From: Flavobacteriales bacterium
GTDB taxonomy: Bacteria; Bacteroidota; Bacteroidia; NORP154
Reading direction: 5' to 3'
Length of the DNA stretch: 35,375 nucleotides
NCBI GenBank assembly: GCA_012966015.1
Contig: DTRI01000131.1
Location: 1-35,375, forward strand
Position numbers and translations under genes: made by a program. The stretch's first letter is position 1; each line of letters starts with the position of its first letter. Of this stretch, positions 8,329 to 35,114 are shown one piece after another. The notes beneath the pieces are model-generated. The model was not told where the DNA came from. It ran no database searches and was given only the letters and a program-made list of their open reading frames with translations.

Positions 8329-9186
8329 TTATTGCGACTTATTTTCTTCTTCTGAAGACGCTGAATCCTGCTCTTCTTCCTTTGCCGCAGCAGCTTCTGC
8401 AGCATCAATGGTGGCAGCATCTTCTGAATTTTGCTCCGGTTCCTTTCCCAGGTCTTCGAAATTCAAGTCCGTGAATTTATTAGCTCCTTCAGTACTACTA
8501 TCCGTAACCGCTTCTTCTGTATTACCTTCTGATGCTTCAGCAGCTTCAGTCGTTTGTGTTTCAGCTACTAAAGGTTCTTCAGTTGCTTCAGTTGCTTCTG
8601 GTACTTCAGTTGCTTCAGTTGCTTCAGTTGTTTCAGTTGCTTCAGTTGTTTCTGGTGCTTCAGTTGTTTCTGGTGCTTCAGTTGTTTCTGGTGCTTCAGT
8701 TGTTTCTGGTGCTTCAGTTGTTTCTGGTGTGCTTACTGGTTCAGCAGCAGGCGTGGTATCCACCTTGGTTTCCACTGTTGCCGAATCTGCAGCTTTCTGG
8801 TCACTGGATGCATCCGCAGTGGCAGCTTCAGCATTGTTCTCCGTTGCTGATTCTGTTGTAGGAGGCCTTTTCTTTTCATAGCTATCACCCGCATTGTGAT
8901 GAGAACGGATGGGAACCTCTCCCTTTTCTTTAATAATGAATTCCATAACCTCTGATAGCCTATCAGAAAATTTTTCAAAATCCTCCTTATATAAGAAGAG
9001 CCGATGCTTTTCATATCGAAATGTACCGTCATCATTGTAACGCTTGGTACTTTCGGTAAGGGTTAGGTAGTAATCATCCGCTTTCGTAGCTTTAACATCA
9101 AAGAAATAAGTTCTTTTTCCAGCTCTTACATACCTTGAAAAGATATCATCTCTCTGTATTTTTTTGTCCGCTATATCTTCCATCAT
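8329..9186 (-). CDS. DUF3276 (PUR-alpha-like nucleic-acid-binding) protein with long acidic repeat tail
   Basis: N-terminal DIFSRYVRAGKRTYFFDVKATKADDYYLTLTESTKRYNDDGTFRYEKHRLFLYKEDFEKF; C-terminal (TEAPET)n acidic tail. Confidence 0.88.
   Translation of the reverse strand: MMEDIADKKIQRDDIFSRYVRAGKRTYFFDVKATKADDYYLTLTESTKRYNDDGTFRYEKHRLFLYKEDFEKFSDRLSEVMEFIIKEKGEVPIRSHHNAGDSYEKKRPPTTESATENNAEAATADASSDQKAADSATVETKVDTTPAAEPVSTPETTEAPETTEAPETTEAPETTEAPETTEATETTEATEATEVPEATEATEEPLVAETQTTEAAEASEGNTEEAVTDSSTEGANKFTDLNFEDLGKEPEQNSEDAATIDAAEAAAAKEEEQDSASSEEENKSQ
8576..8728. repeat. tandem repeat: 17 nonamers, ending in five perfect 18-bp copies (gcttcagttgtttctggt, 8639-8728)
   Basis: Counted directly from sequence; encodes TEAPET/TEA repeats on the minus strand. 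Confidence 0.95.
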
Positions 9187-15178: not shown

Positions 15179-15769
15179 ATGCTCAAAGTAGGAATTACCG
15201 GAGGCATTGGAAGTGGAAAGACAACCGTAGCAAAGGTGTTTTCTACCTTGGGTATAGCTGTATATAATGCTGATGAACGCGCCAGATCAATAACGGCTAC
15301 GGATCCGGAAGTAAGAGAGAAAATCGTCACATTATTCGGCGCGGAAGTATTCAATGTAAAGAATGCGTTGAACAGAGCAAAGCTTGCTGAGGTGGTATTC
15401 AGTGATGCAGAAGCATTAGAGAAACTAAACGCAATTGTACATCCTCGGGTCCGCATAGATTTTGGCAAATGGATAGCTGAACAAACATCGGAGTACATTA
15501 TTAAAGAAGCTGCCATATTAATTGAAAATGGTACCCACAAAGAACTGGATGCACTCATTTTGGTAACGGCAGATAAGGAGGAGAGAATAGAAAGGGTGAT
15601 GAAACGCGATGGCGTTAATCGAGAATTGGTTGTTCAGCGAATGAACAATCAAATGGATGACAAAGACAAACAAGAATTTGCTACCTATACAATAGACAAC
15701 GATGACAATCAGCTGGTAATACAGCAGGTATTGGAGATTCATGAAGATCTTATCAGCAAAGCAGGTTAG
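15179..15769 (+). CDS. coaE: dephospho-CoA kinase
   Basis: KVGITGGIGSGKTTVAKVF P-loop; YNADERAR; HPRVRIDF. Confidence 0.96.
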   Translation: MLKVGITGGIGSGKTTVAKVFSTLGIAVYNADERARSITATDPEVREKIVTLFGAEVFNVKNALNRAKLAEVVFSDAEALEKLNAIVHPRVRIDFGKWIAEQTSEYIIKEAAILIENGTHKELDALILVTADKEERIERVMKRDGVNRELVVQRMNNQMDDKDKQEFATYTIDNDDNQLVIQQVLEIHEDLISKAG

Positions 15770-17258
15770 GGCTGTAGATGCCTACACCATCGATCGGGAG
15801 CCCATCGCGTCAATTGATTTGATGGAGCGAGCCTCTATGGCTTGTTTTAAATGGTTGATAGAGAAATATGCTAAGGACCGGCCATTTATTATTTTTTGCG
15901 GGCTGGGAAATAATGGTGGTGATGGCCTGGCCATTGCCCGTCTGCTATCTGAGAAGGGCTATAAAGTTGAAGTGCACATTGTTAGGTACAGCGATGTGCA
16001 ATCAAAAGACTTTCAAACCAATTTGGCAAGGCTGAAAAAGCTGAAATCGGTTTCAATTATCTACAACGATGAGGAGCATATGTGGGATGGTATTCTCATA
16101 CCTGCAGAATCCATAATTATAGATGCCATATTTGGTTCAGGTTTAAGCAGGCCGGTAAGCGGATTTCCAAGAGAGCTCATCAACACCATCAATCATTGCA
16201 CCGTGGATGTGGTGGCTATTGATATACCATCTGGAATGTTCATAGAACAGAATGACAGGAAGCTCCATAAAAACATGGTTCACGCTACCTGGACACTTTC
16301 TTTGCAACTTCCTAAACTGGCTTATATGTTTGCAGACAATGCAGCTATAGTCGGAAACTGGGTATTAATTCCCATAGGGCTTCATGAGGCTGGCATTAAT
16401 GCGCAGAAATCAGATTATCAATTTATTACCACAAGTGACGCTGCCTCTTTAATGCGTACTCGTGATAAGTTCGATCACAAGGGTAAGTTTGGCCATTCTC
16501 TCATGATTGCAGGGAGCAAGGGTATGATGGGAGCTGCAACACTGGCTACCAAGGCCTGTTTAAGAGCTGGTTCAGGACTGGTCACAGCTCTTGTCCCATC
16601 AATAGGATATGGGATCATACAAACCGCTGTGCCTGAGAGTATGGCGCTGGCCGATGTCGACACAGATTGTGTTACAAGAATCCCCAAACTGGATAAATAT
16701 TCGTCTATTGCCATTGGTCCGGGGATAGGCGATAACCAGAAGACAGAGCGGGCTTTGAAGCATTTAATTCAAAATACCGGAGTTCCTCTGGTAATTGATG
16801 CAGACGCAATTAATATAATGGCCAGAAATAAAACCTGGATTTCCTTTGTTCCTGCCAACAGTATTTACACGCCCCATCCCGGTGAGTTTGCCCGCCTTAT
16901 TGATTGGAATGAAACCGGATATGATCTATTGAAAGCACAAATGGACTTCTCAAAAAAGCACGGCGTGTACGTGGTGCTGAAGGGTATGCACACCTCTATC
17001 AGCTGCCCGAATGGCATCTGCTATTTTAATTCAACGGGCAATCCAGGAATGGCTACAGGTGGAAGTGGAGACGTGCTTACTGGGATCATTGCCGGGCTCC
17101 TTGCTCAGCAATACGGTCCGAGGGATGCCTGTATTTTAGGGACTTACTTGCATGGTATTGCCGGTGATTTGGCTGCCGATCAGAAGGGGCAACATTCGTT
17201 AATCGCCTCAGATATTATTGAATTTCTGGGAGCCGCGTTTAAATCCACTTATTCGTAG
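15741..17258 (+). CDS. nnrD: bifunctional NAD(P)H-hydrate epimerase / ADP-dependent NAD(P)H-hydrate dehydratase
   Basis: N-terminal epimerase (MKILSAKQVRAVDAYTI, GLGNNGGDGLAIARLL); C-terminal dehydratase (HKGKFGHSLMIAGSKGMMGAATLA, NPGMATGGSGDVLTGIIAGLLAQ); overlaps coaE by 29 nt. Confidence 0.95.
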   Translation: MKILSAKQVRAVDAYTIDREPIASIDLMERASMACFKWLIEKYAKDRPFIIFCGLGNNGGDGLAIARLLSEKGYKVEVHIVRYSDVQSKDFQTNLARLKKLKSVSIIYNDEEHMWDGILIPAESIIIDAIFGSGLSRPVSGFPRELINTINHCTVDVVAIDIPSGMFIEQNDRKLHKNMVHATWTLSLQLPKLAYMFADNAAIVGNWVLIPIGLHEAGINAQKSDYQFITTSDAASLMRTRDKFDHKGKFGHSLMIAGSKGMMGAATLATKACLRAGSGLVTALVPSIGYGIIQTAVPESMALADVDTDCVTRIPKLDKYSSIAIGPGIGDNQKTERALKHLIQNTGVPLVIDADAINIMARNKTWISFVPANSIYTPHPGEFARLIDWNETGYDLLKAQMDFSKKHGVYVVLKGMHTSISCPNGICYFNSTGNPGMATGGSGDVLTGIIAGLLAQQYGPRDACILGTYLHGIAGDLAADQKGQHSLIASDIIEFLGAAFKSTYS

Positions 17259-17264
17259 ATAGAT

Positions 17265-18092
17265 ATGCTGTACTGCTATAGCAACGGGCACATTATTCCT
17301 TCAGCAGAGGCAACCGTTCACATCAGCGATTTGGGCTTGGTTAGATCCTATGCCGTCTTTGATTTTTTCAGGACTTATGGCGGGAAGCCTTTTCGCATGC
17401 CTGATTATCTGGCGAGATTTAGAAATAGTGCTGCGAACCTGAGACTGCCTTTCAATTTGAGTGATGAAGAATTGTTGAATATCATTAATGTGTTAATGAC
17501 AAAGAGTGAATTGAAGGAGGCTGGGATCAAAATGATACTGACCGGAGGTGAGAGTAAGGACACTATGACCATTGAGAAGCCAAACTTCTTCGTGCAAGTT
17601 ATGGAGCTGTCGGAGCTGTCTGAAGATCATTACACGGAAGGCGTCAAGCTCATAACTTCTGATTTTCAACGTGAGATTCCGGTGGTCAAGTCTACCCATT
17701 ATTTGAATGCCATTAAGCTTCAGCCATTGAAGGAGAAGCACGGTGCCTATGATGTTTTGTACTGCTTTAAGGGAAAGGTTTTGGAGGTTCCGCGCAATAA
17801 CTTCTTTCTGATTAAAAATGACACCCTCATAACGCCAAAAGACGATGTGCTCCTGGGAATTACCAGAAAGGTTACCCTCGAGCTGGCGCAGGATCATTTT
17901 AAGGTAGAGGAGAGGGAAGTAGTGGTTGACGAATTGCAGGAGGCAGATGAAGCCTTCGTAACCGGAACCACAAGGCGAATGGTGCCCGTAGTTCAAATAG
18001 ACGATTACTCAATTGGAGAGGGAAGGGTAGGAGAGGGCACCAAGAAATTGATCGGATTGTTTGATCAGTATATTGGCGAAGTGAGCATTTAA
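17265..18092 (+). CDS. aminotransferase class IV (branched-chain/D-amino-acid/ADC-lyase-like)
   Basis: HISDLGLVRSYAVFDFFRTYGGKPFRMPDYLARF; KSTHYLNAI; EVPRNNFFLIKNDTLITP. Confidence 0.9.
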   Translation: MLYCYSNGHIIPSAEATVHISDLGLVRSYAVFDFFRTYGGKPFRMPDYLARFRNSAANLRLPFNLSDEELLNIINVLMTKSELKEAGIKMILTGGESKDTMTIEKPNFFVQVMELSELSEDHYTEGVKLITSDFQREIPVVKSTHYLNAIKLQPLKEKHGAYDVLYCFKGKVLEVPRNNFFLIKNDTLITPKDDVLLGITRKVTLELAQDHFKVEEREVVVDELQEADEAFVTGTTRRMVPVVQIDDYSIGEGRVGEGTKKLIGLFDQYIGEVSI

Positions 18093-24273: not shown

Positions 24274-25554
24274 TTACCACTCTTCGGAGTACAGCGGAAA
24301 TTCGGTCATGAGTTCATTCACTTTCTTTCCCACGGCTTCTATAATGCTCTCATTTTCATGATCTACAAGAATTTCGTCAATCATGTTAACGATATCCACC
24401 ATGTGATTTTCTTTTAGCCCGCGCGTGGTTACTGCGGGTGTGCCAATTCTTATTCCTGAAGTAACAAAGGGCGATTGATCATCAAAAGGGACCATGTTCT
24501 TGTTCAATGTTATCTCTGCCTTTACCAGCGCCTCTTCGGCCTGTTTGCCTGTAAGTCCCTTGGATCTCATATCTATGAGCATACAGTGATTATCCGTTCC
24601 CTTCGATATGATGTCATAACCCTTTTCCAAAAATGAGTCAGCCATTGCCTGGGCATTGCTTATCACTTGCTTGCAATAGGTGGTGTACCCGTCAGTCAAT
24701 GCTTCTCCAAAGGCAATTGCCTTGGCGGCTATTACATGCTCTAAGGGCCCGCCCTGTGTTCCGGGAAATACGCCAGAATCCAGAATAGCAGACATCATTC
24801 TAATCTTGCCTTTTGGAGTTGTCAACCCCCAGGGATTTTCAAAATTCTCTCCCATCATGATCATGCCTCCCCTTGGGCCCCGTAGGGTTTTGTGCGTGGT
24901 AGTGGTGATGATATGGCAGTGGGGTAGTGGGTCGTTCAAAAGTTTTGTGGCTATGAGGCCCGCAGGGTGCGCGATATCAGCCATTAGCAGGCATCCAACT
25001 TTATCGGCAATTTCCCGCATTCTGGCATAGTCCCAATCTCTCGAGTATGCAGATGCACCAGCAACAATCAGTTTTGGTTGTTCGCTTACAGCAGTTTTCT
25101 CCATGATATCATAATCGATCCTGCCGGTTTCCTTTTGCACATCGTAGAAAACAGGGTTATAGAGCTTACCGGAAAAATTAACTGTAGAGCCATGGGTAAG
25201 GTGGCCACCGTGAGATAGATTAAACCCCAATAGTTTGTCACCCGGCTTTAGAACTGCAAGCATCACTGCTGCATTGGCCTGGGCTCCGGAATGCGGTTGA
25301 ACATTTACCCATTCCGCTCCAAAAAGTTCCTTGGCGCGATCGATGGCGAGCTGTTCAATTTCATCAACTACTTCGCAACCACCGTAGTATCTTTTTCCCG
25401 GCAATCCTTCCGCATACTTATTGGTTAGGCAGGTTCCCATAGCCCTTATCACCTGATCACTTGCAAAGTTTTCAGAAGCGATAAGTTCAATGCCTTTCTC
25501 TTGTCGTTCCAGCTCTTTTTCAATAAGGCCAAATACAGTTTTTTCCTTTTCCAT
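24274..25554 (-). CDS. glyA: serine hydroxymethyltransferase
   Basis: [55 protein letters not shown]. Confidence 0.98.
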
Positions 25555-25603: not shown

Positions 25604-26074
25604 CTATGAATTGGAGCTTTTCGCAAGCTTAAATGCTGGAATCAGCGCCATTAGCGGAATGGGCGATGTAAGAAACCCCATGGCAAAACGGGAAAGACGA
25701 TATCCTTCTTTTGGAAAGCCAATAAGGCTGCCTCCCATGTACAATATAAATGAAATGCATATAACCCCAACAAAGAGGTAGATGGTGTACATAATGTACT
25801 TTTCCCTCTTAAATATTAGATGGAGAACTGAAATGGTAGCCAGAAAATAAAGAATGGTTGACAATATGGTCATGCCCCATTTTAACCACATAAGATCATC
25901 ATAATTCCATGAAAGAAGCATAGAGAGCTTATCCGACATTAATGATAATTCAGTTTTGTAGTATAGATAGTGCAGATGATGGTTTACATTTTCGAACAGG
26001 AATTGTTCGACATAACCCAGCATTATAATAAAGAGAACAGCTGTTCCTAGAAATATTTCTTTGACTTTGGTCAT
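25604..26074 (-). CDS. polytopic membrane protein, probable exosortase-associated protein
   Basis: Four hydrophobic segments; start lies 29 bp after the exosortase stop, same strand; resembles the small membrane partner usually encoded next to Bacteroidota exosortases. Confidence 0.65.
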   Translation of the reverse strand: MTKVKEIFLGTAVLFIIMLGYVEQFLFENVNHHLHYLYYKTELSLMSDKLSMLLSWNYDDLMWLKWGMTILSTILYFLATISVLHLIFKREKYIMYTIYLFVGVICISFILYMGGSLIGFPKEGYRLSRFAMGFLTSPIPLMALIPAFKLAKSSNS

Positions 26075-26103: not shown

Positions 26104-26670
26104 CTATTCCTTGGATTGTGACACAGCTCCAAATTTATTCACCCAAATTACCCAGAGAAGGAAAATATAAGCGTACACCGTTATGGTGAAGGTATAATGG
26201 TGATTAAAATCCAACAGCTCTGGGGCGTGGTTAGCGAGAAGACACAAAGCCACAATTCTTACCACATTAATTAAATGCACTGTAACCAAGCCTAATGGAA
26301 TGTACCATAGCTTTTTTGAGATGGGGCCAGGATAGGCGAGGATAAATCCAGCGAACAAAGCAAGCAGTGGAAGTCCGGCACAACTATCTGCAATAAATAC
26401 CCCATGAGATCCATCAATTCCCAATGTGCGAACGTTTTCGTCGAGAAATACAATTGGGATTAAGCCATAGCCAAGCAGTGATAAAATTGATTCGCAGAAC
26501 CATGTGAGGTTGCTAACCAATAACAGCTCAATTGTCTGGTTAGGGTGAATCCAAAATTGGTAAACCGTTTCCCAGGAAATGTAAAGGATTGCGCTGGTTA
26601 GGATAAACCTGAAAAGCTGCCTGTTTATCTTAATTCCCCTGATAGTAAATGACGCTTCCGTTTCCGTCAT
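26104..26670 (-). CDS. exosortase/archaeosortase family protein
   Basis: Multi-TM protein with the expected Cys/Arg/His triad: FIADSCAGLPLLALFAGFILAYPG, HLINVVRIVALCLL, DFNHHYTFTITVYAYIF. Confidence 0.9.
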   Translation of the reverse strand: MTETEASFTIRGIKINRQLFRFILTSAILYISWETVYQFWIHPNQTIELLLVSNLTWFCESILSLLGYGLIPIVFLDENVRTLGIDGSHGVFIADSCAGLPLLALFAGFILAYPGPISKKLWYIPLGLVTVHLINVVRIVALCLLANHAPELLDFNHHYTFTITVYAYIFLLWVIWVNKFGAVSQSKE

Positions 26671-26679
26671 GAAAGGGAT

Positions 26680-26910
26680 TTATTTTTCTTTTTTGAAGGA
26701 GCCAAGCGCTTTTTTGCCTCCATAAGCTAGGCCTGCGGCCAACAGGAAACCGATGCCACCGTCAATAGGAATACAAGGAGGTGGCCAGCATGGAGGATCG
26801 CCACCGCCACCGGGAGGCCCGGGAGGCCCAGCCGCTTGCACTTCCATGGAGCAAATGGCTAAAATAATTACCGCGAATGGGATAATAAGTTTAAGGGTGA
26901 CTCTTCTCAT
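26680..26910 (-). CDS. 76-aa exosortase substrate-like protein with PIDGG-TM-basic C-terminal sorting signal (PID-CTERM-like)
   Basis: MRRVTLKLIIPFAVIILAICSMEVQA-AGPPGPPGGGGDPPCWPPPCI-PIDGGIGFLLAAGLAYGGKKALGSFKKEK; 9 bp before the exosortase ATG. Track start 26928 is TTG; ATG 26910 preferred. Confidence 0.88.
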   Translation of the reverse strand: MRRVTLKLIIPFAVIILAICSMEVQAAGPPGPPGGGGDPPCWPPPCIPIDGGIGFLLAAGLAYGGKKALGSFKKEK

Positions 26911-26944
26911 ATCAAAAAACTTGCGCAAAGCTATACAATTTGTG

Positions 26945-29900
26945 CTAATAGATTACCTTTTCTGTGAGGCTGTTGTTTTTTGACGCTACCTTAATGAAAT
27001 AGATTCCTGTTTTTTCATTGGTAAGATTGACCCGGATGCGTTCATCTCTCACTTTCACCTCGTTGCGATTTATAACTTCTTGTCCTATTATATTAAATAC
27101 CGAAATTTTAATGGAAGTTACTTCTTTAAATCCGAAATCTATATAAATAATTCCATCTGATTGAACAATGTGAATAAGGTCTTCAAATGATTTAACCTCC
27201 TCAATTGCAATTGGAGGTGAATCCATTACGACAATAATTTGGTTAGCTGTAGCTGAGCAACCATTGCTGTCGAAAGCACTGAGTACAACTGTATAAGTTC
27301 CCACCGACAGGTACGCATGCCAAACGTCATTGGCAAATGCAGAGTCTCCATCACCAAAATCCCAGGTGTATGAAATTGCATTGGCAGAGCTATTATAAAA
27401 CTGAACGGTTGCTCCCGATGTTAGATAAGTTGTATCCATATCAACGGTAAATCCTGCACTAACTTGTATTGGATCTATTAATGTTGAATTTGCACTTTGC
27501 ATACAATTATTGGCATCTGTAATAGCGACGTCATAATTCCCATCGCCTACATTACTCAGATCTTCAGTAGTGGCTCCGTTTGACCATGCGTAAGTATAAG
27601 GTTGAGTTCCTCCAGTAACCATTAAATCAATGGAACCATCGCTGCCTCCGAAACATGAAGGATCCTGTATCTGAATTATGCTAGAGGCCAGTACCGTTGG
27701 CTCTGAAATGGTCACTGTATCCATTACAGTGGAGCAATACCCACTTGAGTTTGTGACTATTACCGTATAAGTATCCGGGCTGAGTCCTGCAGCTGTGTCA
27801 GCAGAATTTACATTCAACATGTTTCTAACTGTATCTCCATTAGAATTGAGCCATAGATAACTCCATGGTCCAGTTCCCTGGGCGGTAGCTACAACCATTC
27901 CATCACTCGCTCCATTACAAGTTATGTCAGTTGTCTGCTTGCCAAGCTCCTTGCCCACATGCAAGATGAAGCGAGGAGACAAAGCTGTGTCAGGTGTCAT
28001 AGTAAATGTGTAAGAAGGTGTTGTTCTTAGATCTGTAAATATGTTCGTTAACGTATCTTCCAGAACAACACATACGCTATTAGGTATAGTGGACAACCCA
28101 TCGATGGATATCGTATAGCTGGCAGGTGCACCTGGCCATGTCCAATCAATTTTAACTGGAATGTCAAATTCTTGGGTAAATTCCGGTAAAAAGTTCTGAT
28201 TAACATCGATTAAATCTGAAGTTAAGCTTGAAAAGCTATGCGCTAGATAGTTGAAGCTATACATATTCAATGCTTCAATCTGAGCATCGTAGCTTTCATT
28301 GGCACCCGGGTAGAAGTAGAATTCTGTGAAATCGGAAACTCCATTACCGTCAAGCGTTAATTTGAAACCTGGGGGATTTTGACCGACTTTATAAAAAGTA
28401 CTTCCACCATCAATTTTATCAGCTTCTTCTACCACTACAGCACCTGCTGCCCCATCAGCGTGTACAAACATTCCCTGCATAGATGGTATAATATCATTGT
28501 CTGCAAGTAAAGCCCTGTTTAAATTTATAAACCCACCAACTCCTCCAAGATCCGGATCATAGAGGTATGCGATTCCTGTAACGCCACCAGTGGAGGCCGC
28601 CTCATCCCAGGAAATAGCTGACGGGAATGGATTACCTATCAAACTCCAGCCGTCATCCGGATCACCAGCGCTGGGTGTTTGCGTGCAAGTAATAGATTGA
28701 GTTCCTTTGATCAAAGATCCCGTTAGCGATGTAGTAATTGACGTAGAAGCACAGGGTGGAAGACAGGTGCCAACATACATAAAATATCCTCTAATTCCTG
28801 TTCCGGAAGGAAGGACATCTGACAAATTCACTCCCACAGGCCCTGGGTCATCGTTGGCTGAATACCCATTGGAATTCGCACCACCTACCGTTTCATCATA
28901 AGTATACACGGTGGTATAATGGGGTGAGGTATGTACACCCCCTCCAACGCATGCCATTTGAATTTGTGAATTCCAGGAACCCACTGTTGGCGTTGATCCA
29001 CCAACCGGGCTTGCCAAAATTCTCCACTCAACCGTTGAAGAAATAAGTCTTTCAATGGTGAAATTACCTGAGATATCCCCTGTTCCTTTAACCTCACCAA
29101 TTCCCGCCGTTCCACTGGCAGTTGAAAGCAGGGTCAAGGTCTGAGCGCCTAACGTAAGTGTCCCGCCTTTCAGCGTAAGCGTACCGGTAGGTGATATATC
29201 AATTCCCTTGGTTAGGCTAACACCACCCGAGCTGTTGTTAATTGTTAGGTTGTTGAATGTATTAAGACCACTTCCACCAATGGTTTGCGCTGTGCTACCA
29301 GTCATTGCCAGCGTATCCGTTCCTTGGGTAAAGGTCCCGGAGTTGTTGAAGTCGCCTCCGCAATTTAGTGTGAACCCTCCGGTATTCAACGTTCCTGTAG
29401 TAATGGTCACATTACCCATTGTCGTTACTTTAGCGCCCATCGTAACTCCTGATCCGGAATTGTTGATTGTTACATGGTTAAATGTAAAGTCAGGGCCGGC
29501 ATTTAGCGTTTGTGCGCCAGTGCCATTTAAATTAAGCGTGTTTCCCGCTCCGCTTTCATATCTCCCAACCGTATTTAGTACCATGTTTCCACCTAAATTC
29601 AAGGTGCTCGCTCCCCCGTCATTCATAAATATGGCGGCGGCAAAGTTATTTGTACCATGGTTCATATCAATATTCCCGGCAACGCTTAATACGCCTGTGC
29701 CATTAACGGTTATTTGCGCTTTTCCCGTGCCGTCACCCGAACCATTCAGTTCAATATCATTGGCAACACTGAGTGCGCTGGCTGTATTGACCTCAACCTT
29801 AACATCACCAAAGCCATCACCACCATTCAGAGAAACTGAGCTGCATGAGTCTGAAATGGTACGTACTGTAACTGTGTGTGATGCCGCAATTATTACGCTA

Positions 29901-32900
29901 TCTCCGCTTCCGGGAGCTGTGCCACCAACCCAGGTGACTCCCAAATCCCAGAATCCCGAAATTGCACTGGTATAGGTACCTCCCAATACAATTGGTAAAC
30001 TGGAGGTGTCATTCGGACATAAACCAGAGGTTACAACAACCCTTATAGTGTCAGAGCCCGGAGCACCTCCCCAGGTAATGGATATTGTTGTATCACAGCA
30101 GGCACCCGTTATGGTACCTAAATTCGGGACTGGGTCTAGTATCCAATTATATAAATATCCAGCATTGTTTAAGACCGTATATGTTTTCGTATTACCAATG
30201 ATAGGATTCGCTTCCCCTATAATTGCAGAGGTAGGAAACGCGTTTACGACTACATTTAATGTTGTTGTATCGCCGGTGGACCCGCATTGTGTTGTTTCTA
30301 CAACTTTGACTCTGCCATTAGCTGTTCCAGGAGTGTCCCAGTCCACTGTAAGGGTACGGGTTCCCTGCCCGTTAAAAATAGTTCCGCCCGTTACCACCCA
30401 AACGTAAGTTGAATTGAGTGTCGGGCAGGTGTACACATCCTGGTCTCCAGTACATACAGTAGCTGGCCCAGTAATTACAGAAACAGGCGTAGCACATACA
30501 TTTCCGAATCCAAATTGGCCCAGTCCACTCATGACTGTTCTCTTTGCAGTAGGGGCAACGGCAGCTGCGTGCGTTCCATCAAATGTCCAGGGGCTAACAG
30601 CATTTGCTCTCTTCATTAAATGAGTGGAATCTACATGCACCGTATGTTCCACAAATCCGGTGCCGTTCAAATCCAGGTTATAGGTCGTGGCAACAAGTCC
30701 ATTGCCTGCAGCTAAATCCCAAAAGCCATCATTAAATGCATCAAAAACGCTGTCGAGTGCCGCGTCCTCAATTGGAAGTCCCGTATTTCCGGGATCCGTT
30801 CCGAAAAATTCTGCAGTAACTGTACCTCCGGTCAGGGCCCCAAAATTGATCGTTGCCGTATTTAAGTTGGTGGCGGTGCCAACAGGAAATATAAAATTGA
30901 TTCCCGTTGAGGTTGCTAGAATTCTCCTCTCAAAATTTCCTATCACCGTGCCAGAAGTATATGACAGCGTTCCTTCAGTTGGTGTATTTGTTCCGAGTTG
31001 TAATGCATTTACCCCCGTACTGATGTTTGCAGATGTCATGGTCAGCGTGTTATTAACTCTTACATCGTTATTCAAGGTTATTAATCCACTGCCAGTCGTG
31101 GTAAAGTTATTAAATGTCTCACCTGAGCTATTTGTTATTGCTTTGGCGCCTGCTCCGGTAAAATCAACTGTTCCAATATTTGGCGTAAATGAACCACTGT
31201 TTATCCAGTTTCCCGCGAGATCTATATTGAAACCGGTACCGGCATCCAATATTGAATTGGCACTAATGGTCAGATCGCCGAGAATTGCAATACTGGCACC
31301 CAGGGTTTTTGTAGAAGAGGAACTCGCTTCCATTTTAAGATGACCATATGTCATTGTACCAGCTACAGTTTGAGCTGAATTTAAATTGTATTCAACGGTA
31401 CTGGTTGCGCCAAGAATATCTGTAAAACCAGCTGGATAAGTAGCAGTACTGACCCTAAAAGTGGCTCCGTTGTCCACTTGTAAATTATCGCTGCTAGACT
31501 CATTCATAGCAAAGGTGCCATTGTCAAATATTCCGGATTGCACAATGATATTGCCTGTTACATTGGCATCAGTAACTGCTCCACCTAGCGTAACACCCGA
31601 TCCGGAATTGGCAAAAGTTACATGATTTAGAACAATTGACGATCCTATATCCAGGGTTTGCGCAACGCTGCCATTCATAACCAGCGTATTGTTAGTAGAG
31701 CTCGAAAAAGTTCCCAGTGTATTGAGGTTAAGGTCGCCCCCTAAATTTAAAGTGCTCTCGCCCCCGTCATTCATGCTAATGCTGGCGCCGACTGCATTAG
31801 ACGACTCTTTGAAATTCAGATCACTTCCTATAGTCAGCGTTCCCGTTCCATTAACAGTGATATTCGCACTGGCGGCTCCGCCAGCTCCCACCAGGGTAAC
31901 CTTGCCCCCAACGGTAAGTGTGCTCGCTGTATTAATTATTACACGTGCATTTCCACCTCCCGCTGTTAAGGACAGTGTTGAACAAACATCTGTTCCAGAA
32001 GTGACTGTTACAGTGTGTGAGCTTAAAATGGACACGCTGTCAGTACTTGTAGGTGGTGTTGATGGCGGTCCAACCCATGTATTCACATTATTCCAATCCC
32101 CCGAAGTTGCACTCACATAAGTTGAATTGAGATCAATACGCAACTTAGCTGTCTCAGAAGCGCACACTCCAGCGATAACAGTTACCTGAACCGTATCGAA
32201 ACCAGGAACAGCCAACCAATTTATTGATACCGTAGAGTCGCAACAAAATCCTCCAACAGTTCCCAGGCCTTCGGTTAAGCTAAAAGTATATTGGTAGCCT
32301 GTATTATTGGGTACTGTATAAATTTCTGTTGTACTTATAAATGGTGCGACATCACCCGTGATTGACGAAAATGGGAAGGTGTGTACATCTACATTAAGCG
32401 TAACCTGAGGACCAGTTATGCCACAGTAATTTGTTTCAGTAACTTTTACATTTCTACTAGGACCCCCTAAACCGCCTGGGGCCGCATCCCAATCAACAAC
32501 CAGGGTGTTTGTGCCTTGGCCGCTATTAATTGTTCCTCCATTTACTACCCAAACGATGGTAGATGTAGTGGCAGTAATTGTATAGGTTTCCTGTGAGCCA
32601 GCACAAACAGAATCCTCGCCAGCTATAACGGGATTTGGCGTAGGGCATAAATTACCCAAGCCAAATTGGGATAAGCCGCTCATGCCGGTTCTTTTAACCA
32701 AAGGGGGAGTTCCTGTTGCATGCGTCCCATCAAAAGTCCATGGGCTCACTGCGCTTGTTCGTTTCATGAGATGAGTAGAATCCTGGTGAATTGTATGCTC
32801 AACAAAACCTGTTGCTGTCAAATCCAAACTGTATCCACTTGCTACCAGCCCGTCGCCTGCAGCCAGCTCCCAAAATCCCTCGTCGAATGCGTCATAAACA

Positions 32901-34678
32901 GTGTCTCCAGCGGAATCTTCTAGCGGTAACCCGTTATTTCCCGGGTCCGTTCCCGTAAAATCAGCGGTTATGGAACCTCCTGTCAAAGCATCGAAATTAA
33001 TTGTGGCGGTGTTCAAATTGCTGGCTGTACCCACGGGAAATACAAAGTTAAATCCGGTTGAGAATATTCTTCTGTTGAATTGGCCGATGATTGTGCCCGA
33101 TATATAGGTTAAAGTTCCTTCAGTAGGCGTACTCGTTCCAAGTTGAAGTGAATTGGAACCAGTACTTATATTTGCCGACACCATGTTCAAGATATTTTCA
33201 ACGCGAACGCTGTTGTTCAATGTGATAAGTCCGCTTCCGGTAGTGGTCATATTATTAAATGTCTCGCCTCCTGCTTTAGTAATAGACTTGGTGGCGGCTC
33301 CGGTAAAGTCTACAGTGCCACTGTTATGAACAAATGCTCCCGTATTGAGCCAGTTACCTAGCACATTGATGGTCTCACTGGCAGGTCCGGCCAACGTACC
33401 TGAAATAGTGATATTGTTGAAGGAGCTTGTCGCTGAACCTGAAATGACACTGGTGCCATTGAAGTCCACAGTTCCTCCATTGTCAGCAAATGTGCCACTG
33501 TTAATCCAGTTTCCAGCAACGTTCATTGTTGAGCTACTGCCTGTCAAAGTGGAGGAACCCACTATAGAAATATTGTTAAATGAGGTAGTCGCAGATCCTC
33601 CTATTGTGGTTGCACCATCAAAAAATACGGTAGCTGCGCGAGCGTTGAACGTTTGGTTGTTGGTCCAATTTCCGGCAAGGTTGATGTTAAAGTCATTGGC
33701 TACATCAGCATCCAGGGTAGTTAAAGTAGAAATGGTGAGAATACCATTCACGTCGATGTTCTCTGCCAACGTTTTTGTAGAGCCTCCGGAAACAGTTAGA
33801 TTTGATAGTGGCTGAGTGGTAAGATTGCTGTTGGAGGGCTGGCTAACAGTCTGGTTTCCTCCACTGTATTCAACAGTAGATCCGGCCGTTAATGAGTCTT
33901 CAAACCCGGAGGGCCAAGCTGAGGTTCCAGATAAGAGAAACGTACCCGCAGCCGCAATGTACAGGCTGTCTGGGTCAGTTGTTGCCATGGCAAATCCGCC
34001 ATTATCAAAGTTTCCAGATTGAACGGAAATATTTCCGGTTACATTCGCCTCAGTAATTGCATTTGCTAAGGTTACACCTGAACCACTGTTGTTTAGCGTA
34101 ATATGCTCGTATTCCATAAGTGTACCTATATTCAAGGTTTGGGCACCGGAGCCATTGAAATTAATAATGCTTGCTGTACCAGTATTGGTCAGTTTCCCTG
34201 CAGGGTTTTGTATAATGGAACCTCCAATATTTAGTGTACTTGCCCCGCTGAACATCTGGACAATGGCTGTATTCCCATCGGTAGCATTTAGCGTGATGTT
34301 CCCGGTAATGTTAGCCGTGGCAGTTCCATTAAAGAATAAAAATGTATTGGACAAACCCACGCCATCACCTGTTAAACTTACATCGCCGTTTACCGTTAAG
34401 ACCACTGCAGTCGAAATGTCAATTCGGGTATTAGAACCACCACTAGGCGCATCAAGTGTTAAGGAAGCACAAGTTTTATTTGCATCCACGGTAAGCGTTA
34501 TGCCATCGGCAACAATAATGTGATCCCCTGCCGCTGGTTGACAGGTACAATCCCAGGTGGCATCATCTGTCCAGTCGCCGGAATTTTCGGCAGTTATGGT
34601 TGCGGCATTTGCGTTATTAACTAGCGTAAAAAACGCAATTCCTGCGAGTAGCGATTTAAATAGGCAGTTGTTTTTCAT
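26945..34678 (-). CDS. giant multidomain T9SS-secreted surface protein (SprB repeats, PKD domain, T9SS type A sorting domain)
   Basis: Signal peptide MKNNCLFKSLLAGIAFFTLVNNANA; Gly/Asn/Thr-rich beta repeats; DITCNGASDG.. and DPSCFGGSDGSIDLMVTGGTQPYTYAWSNGATTEDLSNV SprB repeats; ISYTWDFGDGDSAF PKD; C-terminal IKISVFNIIGQEVIN...GIYFIKVASKNNSLTEKVIY. Confidence 0.92.
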   Translation of the reverse strand: MKNNCLFKSLLAGIAFFTLVNNANAATITAENSGDWTDDATWDCTCQPAAGDHIIVADGITLTVDANKTCASLTLDAPSGGSNTRIDISTAVVLTVNGDVSLTGDGVGLSNTFLFFNGTATANITGNITLNATDGNTAIVQMFSGASTLNIGGSIIQNPAGKLTNTGTASIINFNGSGAQTLNIGTLMEYEHITLNNSGSGVTLANAITEANVTGNISVQSGNFDNGGFAMATTDPDSLYIAAAGTFLLSGTSAWPSGFEDSLTAGSTVEYSGGNQTVSQPSNSNLTTQPLSNLTVSGGSTKTLAENIDVNGILTISTLTTLDADVANDFNINLAGNWTNNQTFNARAATVFFDGATTIGGSATTSFNNISIVGSSTLTGSSSTMNVAGNWINSGTFADNGGTVDFNGTSVISGSATSSFNNITISGTLAGPASETINVLGNWLNTGAFVHNSGTVDFTGAATKSITKAGGETFNNMTTTGSGLITLNNSVRVENILNMVSANISTGSNSLQLGTSTPTEGTLTYISGTIIGQFNRRIFSTGFNFVFPVGTASNLNTATINFDALTGGSITADFTGTDPGNNGLPLEDSAGDTVYDAFDEGFWELAAGDGLVASGYSLDLTATGFVEHTIHQDSTHLMKRTSAVSPWTFDGTHATGTPPLVKRTGMSGLSQFGLGNLCPTPNPVIAGEDSVCAGSQETYTITATTSTIVWVVNGGTINSGQGTNTLVVDWDAAPGGLGGPSRNVKVTETNYCGITGPQVTLNVDVHTFPFSSITGDVAPFISTTEIYTVPNNTGYQYTFSLTEGLGTVGGFCCDSTVSINWLAVPGFDTVQVTVIAGVCASETAKLRIDLNSTYVSATSGDWNNVNTWVGPPSTPPTSTDSVSILSSHTVTVTSGTDVCSTLSLTAGGGNARVIINTASTLTVGGKVTLVGAGGAASANITVNGTGTLTIGSDLNFKESSNAVGASISMNDGGESTLNLGGDLNLNTLGTFSSSTNNTLVMNGSVAQTLDIGSSIVLNHVTFANSGSGVTLGGAVTDANVTGNIIVQSGIFDNGTFAMNESSSDNLQVDNGATFRVSTATYPAGFTDILGATSTVEYNLNSAQTVAGTMTYGHLKMEASSSSTKTLGASIAILGDLTISANSILDAGTGFNIDLAGNWINSGSFTPNIGTVDFTGAGAKAITNSSGETFNNFTTTGSGLITLNNDVRVNNTLTMTSANISTGVNALQLGTNTPTEGTLSYTSGTVIGNFERRILATSTGINFIFPVGTATNLNTATINFGALTGGTVTAEFFGTDPGNTGLPIEDAALDSVFDAFNDGFWDLAAGNGLVATTYNLDLNGTGFVEHTVHVDSTHLMKRANAVSPWTFDGTHAAAVAPTAKRTVMSGLGQFGFGNVCATPVSVITGPATVCTGDQDVYTCPTLNSTYVWVVTGGTIFNGQGTRTLTVDWDTPGTANGRVKVVETTQCGSTGDTTTLNVVVNAFPTSAIIGEANPIIGNTKTYTVLNNAGYLYNWILDPVPNLGTITGACCDTTISITWGGAPGSDTIRVVVTSGLCPNDTSSLPIVLGGTYTSAISGFWDLGVTWVGGTAPGSGDSVIIAASHTVTVRTISDSCSSVSLNGGDGFGDVKVEVNTASALSVANDIELNGSGDGTGKAQITVNGTGVLSVAGNIDMNHGTNNFAAAIFMNDGGASTLNLGGNMVLNTVGRYESGAGNTLNLNGTGAQTLNAGPDFTFNHVTINNSGSGVTMGAKVTTMGNVTITTGTLNTGGFTLNCGGDFNNSGTFTQGTDTLAMTGSTAQTIGGSGLNTFNNLTINNSSGGVSLTKGIDISPTGTLTLKGGTLTLGAQTLTLLSTASGTAGIGEVKGTGDISGNFTIERLISSTVEWRILASPVGGSTPTVGSWNSQIQMACVGGGVHTSPHYTTVYTYDETVGGANSNGYSANDDPGPVGVNLSDVLPSGTGIRGYFMYVGTCLPPCASTSITTSLTGSLIKGTQSITCTQTPSAGDPDDGWSLIGNPFPSAISWDEAASTGGVTGIAYLYDPDLGGVGGFINLNRALLADNDIIPSMQGMFVHADGAAGAVVVEEADKIDGGSTFYKVGQNPPGFKLTLDGNGVSDFTEFYFYPGANESYDAQIEALNMYSFNYLAHSFSSLTSDLIDVNQNFLPEFTQEFDIPVKIDWTWPGAPASYTISIDGLSTIPNSVCVVLEDTLTNIFTDLRTTPSYTFTMTPDTALSPRFILHVGKELGKQTTDITCNGASDGMVVATAQGTGPWSYLWLNSNGDTVRNMLNVNSADTAAGLSPDTYTVIVTNSSGYCSTVMDTVTISEPTVLASSIIQIQDPSCFGGSDGSIDLMVTGGTQPYTYAWSNGATTEDLSNVGDGNYDVAITDANNCMQSANSTLIDPIQVSAGFTVDMDTTYLTSGATVQFYNSSANAISYTWDFGDGDSAFANDVWHAYLSVGTYTVVLSAFDSNGCSATANQIIVVMDSPPIAIEEVKSFEDLIHIVQSDGIIYIDFGFKEVTSIKISVFNIIGQEVINRNEVKVRDERIRVNLTNEKTGIYFIKVASKNNSLTEKVIY
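29450..33330 (-). repeat. ~2.15-kb in-frame tandem repeat (about 1.8 copies) within the giant surface protein gene
   Basis: Matched landmarks are offset 2145-2151 nt: ccttcagt(t/a)gg 33117 vs 30972; ccgaa(g/a)ttgcact 32101 vs 29956; tccggaatt 31601 vs 29453; gc(g/a)tcaaaaac-like 32889 vs 30738. Confidence 0.85.
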
Positions 34679-35114
34679 AGTCTTCAATGTATTAAATAGA
34701 GGATTTAAATAATCCTTCAATCAGAGTCAATAATAATTTTTGTTGCTTGATAAGGTGTGCTTAATTTCCATATTTATAATTGATAGTGTCTTAACTGCAG
34801 TGAAAAGTTACATTTATCCGGCAAAAAATCAAAATAACAATTCGTCGGTCCGTTCGTTTTTCAAAGACGCCAAATATCGGAGAAAGTTGCTTGAAAATCA
34901 AGTCTCTGTTGCGATAAGTAGGAATTAAAGCACTATTGTCGACCAATCACACTAAATTAAGCAATCTTTTCTGATAAAATACCCAAGAAAACTGGACTTT
35001 TGGATTAATATCCGAACCTGCCAAAATTATATTTGAGCCTGAACTTGTAGAATAACGATGAAGCTAGATTGAAAATCCTGGCTGCTAGAGAGAGAAAACT
35101 GTAGACATTACATT

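Follow-up and report, generated by a model that had tools for sequence, protein, structure and literature searches.

A 76-aa protein encoded beside exosortase X (XrtX) in the genome of an uncultured Flavobacteriales bacterium is probably a dedicated peptide precursor of this enzyme, which would cut it and transfer the peptide for a linker or anchor role at the cell surface. The PID-CTERM family to which it belongs has already been named, so the gene is not new as a family; it is a member that makes an unusual variant of exosortase system by its dedicated pairing and the conservation of its passenger. Across the bacterial class such a gene is mostly paired one-to-one with xrtX, often beside surface-sugar genes; this points to the peptide alone, and to no larger protein, as the product that XrtX brings to the cell surface.

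The small PID-CTERM gene

The window (the whole stretch of 35,375 nucleotides analysed) contained the small gene on the minus strand at 26680..26910, stop included, with the start codon ATG at 26910. An alternative in-frame TTG six codons upstream would give a product of 82 aa; ATG was preferred, as it appears to be the better start for a signal peptide. The 76-aa product is composed of MRRVTLKLIIPFAVIILAICSMEVQA, AGPPGPPGGGGDPPCWPPPCI, PIDGG, IGFLLAAGLAYGG and KKALGSFKKEK in this order. Residues 1-26 (26833..26910) form a predicted Sec-type signal peptide with a basic start, a hydrophobic core and Ala at the cleavage site, as read likewise in relatives; both this and the membrane segment were assigned by reading the sequence. 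The 21-residue passenger (26770..26832) carries a Cys pair, CWPPPC (26773..26790), and is followed by PIDGG (26755..26769), the presumed exosortase recognition or cleavage region. Then come the hydrophobic stretch (26716..26754) and the basic tail KKALGSFKKEK (26683..26715), so that sequence and alignment together give the tripartite C-terminal signal of motif, hydrophobic stretch and basic tail. The hydrophobic stretch has only about 13 residues between PIDGG and the first Lys pair, in homologs as well; for a segment that crosses the whole membrane this seems short.

An earlier note on this DNA had read the same architecture (signal peptide, passenger of about 21 residues, PIDGG, hydrophobic segment and basic tail) without naming the strand, and every named element is present. 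The name PID-CTERM, which it had given for such tails, was confirmed by the PID_CTERM model (NF046080), covering residues 48-68 with 35.9 bits against a cut-off of 26 (E 4.6e-9). A lipoprotein was considered and rejected: the Cys of the signal peptide (C20) varies among relatives, and the homologs end in Ala-type sites without a conserved lipobox Cys.

A box of the Bacteroidota -7 type, TAGCTTTG, was located at 26926..26933 on the minus strand, 15 nt before the ATG. The pattern TAnnTTTG was detected in 32 of 65 regions upstream of small-gene homologs, versus 5.7 +/- 2.2 in shuffles, and mostly lies 14-24 nt ahead of the ATG. This suggests transcription of the small gene from a promoter of its own. 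Considering the PID_CTERM match, the class-wide conservation beside XrtX and the enrichment of this upstream box, the small ORF is not a chance reading frame.

Pairing with exosortase X

The xrtX gene (26104..26670, minus strand, 188 aa) starts 9 bp downstream of the small gene and was identified by NF046081 (188.8 bits, cut-off 170). Exosortases are expected to use Cys, Arg and His as catalytic residues; C97, R138 and H157 (window numbering) are invariant across 21 aligned XrtX sequences. The AlphaFold model is helical and confident (mean pLDDT 89). Foldseek against the PDB gave no match at E <= 0.001, thus no solved relative of XrtX was found. With the cognate exosortase adjacent and the PID-CTERM tail matched, the earlier proposal of an exosortase substrate gene held, processing being predicted. 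Next to xrtX lies a gene for an XrtX-associated membrane protein (25604..26074, minus strand, 156 aa), which scored 61.4 bits with NF046082, under the cut-off of 75, and whose position downstream of XrtX is kept in 59 of the 78 loci in which the XrtX reading frame is clean.

The earlier note had taken a missing small ORF next to homologous exosortases as grounds for refutation, but the ORF proved to be conserved there. Among 80 XrtX loci obtained from a scan of GTDB genomes, the small gene was directly upstream in 70, ending from 20 bp inside to 235 bp before the XrtX match, and elsewhere in the locus in three more. In a survey of 396 genomes of the class with completeness of at least 90%, PID_CTERM was present in 179 and XrtX-type matches in 230. 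Leaving out the window genome, 173 genomes contained both, five PID only, 56 Xrt only and 162 neither, giving an odds ratio of 100 that is not corrected for phylogeny. XrtX over its cut-off was found in 106 genomes, of which 99 also had PID and 88 of these exactly one copy. Of the seven genomes that seemed to lack PID, two were inspected, and both encode a CWPPPC or CGGPFPPC peptide below the model threshold.

Among the PID matches listed for the 396 genomes, all but one fell in frames shorter than 200 aa. The exception, of 995 aa, was rejected as a long PID-CTERM protein, being a membrane protein with a degenerate tail. From the single-copy counts and the short frames, PID-CTERM/XrtX is mostly a system of one enzyme and one tiny substrate, and their dedicated pairing has good support. 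Up to five PID copies occur in some genomes. In multi-copy genomes, several contigs (G454:C7, G454:C18, G458:C23 and G450:C17) start right at a PID-CTERM tail, as though assembly had been interrupted by the repeats; MAG copy numbers may therefore be too low. The genome of the window also gave a weak second exosortase-like match (G000:C40:3994-4371; 28 bits to the XrtX model, frame of 351 aa), possibly another exosortase class.

Variation and selection in the passenger

Two Cys were found in the passengers of 63 of the 70 adjacent homologs (CWPPPC in 39, CGGPFPPC in nine, CIPPPC in four, and rarer variants), and the second Cys always stands one or two residues before the motif, which reads PIDGG in 51 of the 70. 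The pair is absent in seven, five from Hymenobacter and two others, so not every XrtX system requires it. The earlier note had proposed aligning such small ORFs for a conserved Cys pair, PIDGG and GPP segment; the first two were retained to the extent given, but the GPP segment was not. Outside the family it is replaced by APPPPPGG, QPGGG, GMGMGPP and similar stretches, and what persists across relatives is the Cys pair with Pro between, adjoining PIDGG. The description of the passenger as collagen-like was accordingly dropped, as there are only two GPP triplets, no Pfam match, and a segment that changes in relatives. At f11 loci (L208, L209, L218 and others) acidic passengers such as QPGFDDDV-DT and QPGSGGGGFDDEPQDV replace the Pro/Cys type while the P[IVL]DGG tail is kept; the genomes of these lineages have several similar, not always identical, copies.

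The genome of the window (G000) contains one more PID-CTERM gene, on another contig, whose passenger is identical residue for residue. Over the 21 passenger codons of the two copies pS is 0.57 and pN is 0; their signal peptides are unrelated (pN 0.78), with free divergence up to the cleavage site, and so are the tails after the Lys pair. The passenger paralogs of two related genomes, G005 and G006, gave pS 0.78 and 0.75 with pN 0, and between paralogs in the three genomes the signal peptides have pN 0.6-0.8; this analysis comprises few sites and few genomes. The signal peptides of the second copies are closer to each other across genomes (pN 0.37-0.44) than to those of the copies beside xrtX (0.60-0.85). 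The duplication thus seems to predate the split of G000, G005 and G006. Within each genome both copies share one variant, CWPPPCI in G000 and CWPAPCV in G005 and G006, and synonymous sites in these three genomes showed no signs of gene conversion between the passenger copies.

Copies that share a passenger but have diverged synonymous sites were also found within G127 (two of three copies), G174 (two), G176 (three), G135 and G218 (at least three), which have quite different peptides. We rejected the idea that passengers are always identical within a genome, since they differ in G032, G141, G249, G010, G063 and several f11 genomes; identity is therefore a strong constraint and not a rule. The passenger is under strong purifying selection, and pN of 0 at high pS makes a mere spacer unlikely. 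Together with the Cys pair, this makes the passenger the conserved, product-like part, in line with the delivered peptide that the earlier note had proposed.

Conservation might also mean that the passenger belongs to the signal which the enzyme recognises, and not to the product. Another explanation is that the small protein is an accessory subunit of XrtX (an activator, gatekeeper or membrane adaptor) that is never released and whose passenger contacts the enzyme. The tight 1:1 linkage with 9-bp spacing to xrtX would fit such a subunit, as would the location of the most conserved residues, from the Cys pair to PIDGG, next to the membrane. However, the N-terminal Gly/Pro half is as invariant between paralogs as the Cys loop, second copies lie far from xrtX in operons with an ECF sigma factor, genomes may contain up to five copies, and lineages with unrelated passengers still retain the PIDGG tail and an exosortase. 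We consider the accessory subunit unlikely.

A second locus with an ECF sigma factor

The second PID copy (L001/L062, G000:C274, about 15550-17300) follows genes for an ECF sigma factor (58.8 bits versus 42.9 for TIGR02937) and for a protein of 292 aa in which a single TM segment is apparent and to which domain-model search assigned no family. The same order of sigma factor, 292-aa protein and PID was found in G005 and G006, and the first two genes in G004, where the contig ends. The operon occurred in four of 295 genomes, all in the family of the window organism. From this arrangement we infer a regulatory link between the sigma operon and the PID peptide.

Such an operon raises the question of a signal: the peptide might be a diffusible or surface-displayed pheromone or identity tag that is read by a partner, with the sigma factor and the single-TM protein making or sensing it. 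The operon in G000, G005 and G006 would suit this, and so would passengers that differ strongly between lineages and yet have the same variant in both copies of a genome without gene-conversion signs at synonymous sites. But among the 295 genomes the operon was found in one family only, no receptor candidate was found, and within-genome identity fails in G032, G141, G249, G063 and several f11 genomes, so that we regard a signalling role as quite improbable.

Gene neighbourhood

Upstream of the small gene, and ending 34 bp from it, is a gene for a T9SS cargo protein of 2591 aa (26945..34720, minus strand), in which domain matches revealed SprB repeats, PKD and a type A sorting tail. Of the 78 clean XrtX loci, 31 have a T9SS cargo protein encoded directly upstream in the same orientation. 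With most of this other upstream cargo the window protein shares about 22-39% identity across several hundred residues. One specific family for these proteins was considered and rejected, because the matched region also resembles common T9SS cargo; therefore we claim only the position. Further upstream, a second T9SS-type tail is cut by the contig end (35160-35375, minus strand).

A Wzc-type polysaccharide tyrosine kinase was found near 43 of the 78 XrtX loci, nearly always divergent, and the cluster that it heads includes an UpxY antiterminator, an ABC-2 exporter, an epimerase and an amidotransferase. Nearly half of the loci were without an adjacent Wzc, some of the MAG contigs being short. 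In the window no polysaccharide genes were visible upstream of the small gene, where the contig ends, and the Wzc cluster of relatives, if present in this genome, would be beyond that end. On the other side glyA, for a serine hydroxymethyltransferase (24274..25554, minus strand, named by eye), is a conserved downstream neighbour, with homologs downstream of XrtX in 37 of the 78 loci; it is not part of the proposed mechanism. Elsewhere in the window, at 8329-9186 on the minus strand, a frame encodes a protein whose short N-terminal domain leads into a tail of Thr/Glu/Ala/Pro repeats (ETTEAPETTEAPETT...), and the opposite strand has long mirrored ORFs.

Proposed mechanism

The small protein would be exported by Sec and lose residues 1-26 to signal peptidase, while its C-terminal hydrophobic and basic tail would retain it in the inner membrane. 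XrtX, as a membrane Cys protease or transpeptidase, would then cleave at or near PIDGG and transfer the Pro/Gly peptide of about 21-25 residues to an acceptor, lipid or polysaccharide. Cleavage and transfer by XrtX are proposed by analogy, from the knowledge on archaeosortase A and its lipid-linked substrates. The peptide would move with the surface polysaccharide or glycolipid and serve there as an anchor or a linker of the matrix. Its Cys pair might crosslink or staple it, and the two Cys may form a disulfide, as the earlier note had supposed; the large T9SS cargo protein from the gene immediately upstream might bind it. The loci without an adjacent Wzc, the lack of visible polysaccharide genes in the window and the passengers that have no Cys pair weigh against this mechanism.

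A polysaccharide acceptor with a matrix role is suggested by the gene context, and we would put it slightly short of an even chance; the link of the XrtX peptide to surface polysaccharide comes from the gene neighbourhood and from phenotypes of related systems, none of which is an XrtX test. Tentatively, and with more doubt, XrtX might be an enzyme for peptide conjugation that has, in most genomes, no other task than to place one lineage-specific, Cys-paired Pro/Gly peptide onto a surface glycan or lipid. If so, the XrtX "sorting" system would be a machine for a peptide-modified surface polymer, with a sequence constant per cell and free between lineages. Ordinary exosortase sorting, with PID-CTERM as a tag of general use and the small gene as a minimal or decaying case of it, is very improbable: NCBI annotates PID_CTERM as a sorting domain and PEP-CTERM systems as a rule handle a large variety of proteins (PMC1569441), but essentially no long PID-CTERM proteins exist among the matches listed for the 396 genomes, and passenger pN of 0 at high pS is the opposite of decay.

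Comparison with known systems

Exosortases have been known since 2006, and to our knowledge their products and acceptors are largely undefined to date. One enzyme with one substrate of about 21 residues is the simplest possible case, in which a single peptide analysed by mass spectrometry could give the product, the cut site and the acceptor. If the dedicated precursor proposed here is true, a "sorting tag" may serve the making of a peptide rather than the sorting of a protein. Our search of openly accessible literature found no paper on PID-CTERM, XrtX or CWPPPC.

The NCBIfam models for PID-CTERM, XrtX and the associated protein (NF046080, NF046081 and NF046082) describe the tag and the enzyme; peptide and exosortase of the window are over their cut-offs, the associated protein is under its own, and the gene order is as in relatives. 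New here are the conservation of the Cys pair in the passenger, the mostly one-to-one dosage, the own promoter box and the T9SS/Wzc context.

The closest experimentally studied exosortase is XrtF of Flavobacterium johnsoniae (TIGR04128), with which the window XrtX scored 86 bits against a cut-off of 90. Both have a membrane partner. In F. johnsoniae, biofilm and the colonisation of surfaces and sand depend on both xrtF and its partner gene, and the study that showed this named the substrates as an open question (PMC10936215). Directly upstream of XrtF-like genes the PID peptide was absent in the three loci examined. Further precedents come from related systems: the PEP-CTERM protein PepA shifts polysaccharide (EPS) from soluble to cell-bound (PMC9850573), cyanoexosortase B influences the adhesion of polysaccharide to cells (PMC12188702), and archaeosortase A substrates become lipid-anchored (PMC7157517).

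MYXO-CTERM resembles the present peptide in having Cys in a motif adjoining the C-terminal membrane tag. However, it has a single invariant Cys that is proposed to be lipidated, and myxosortase is an unrelated CPBP protease with dozens of clients per genome (PMC11980579). The PEP-CTERM/XrtA (EpsH) system shares with PID-CTERM/XrtX the signal peptide, short motif, hydrophobic segment, basic tail, partner exosortase and exopolysaccharide neighbourhood. The small protein is not a PEP-CTERM/XrtA member, as its motif is PIDGG, PID_CTERM is its sole match and XrtX is the top exosortase model for its partner. PEP-CTERM systems are many-to-one, the median genome having eight diverse proteins (PMC1569441), whereas PID/XrtX has mostly one tiny substrate.
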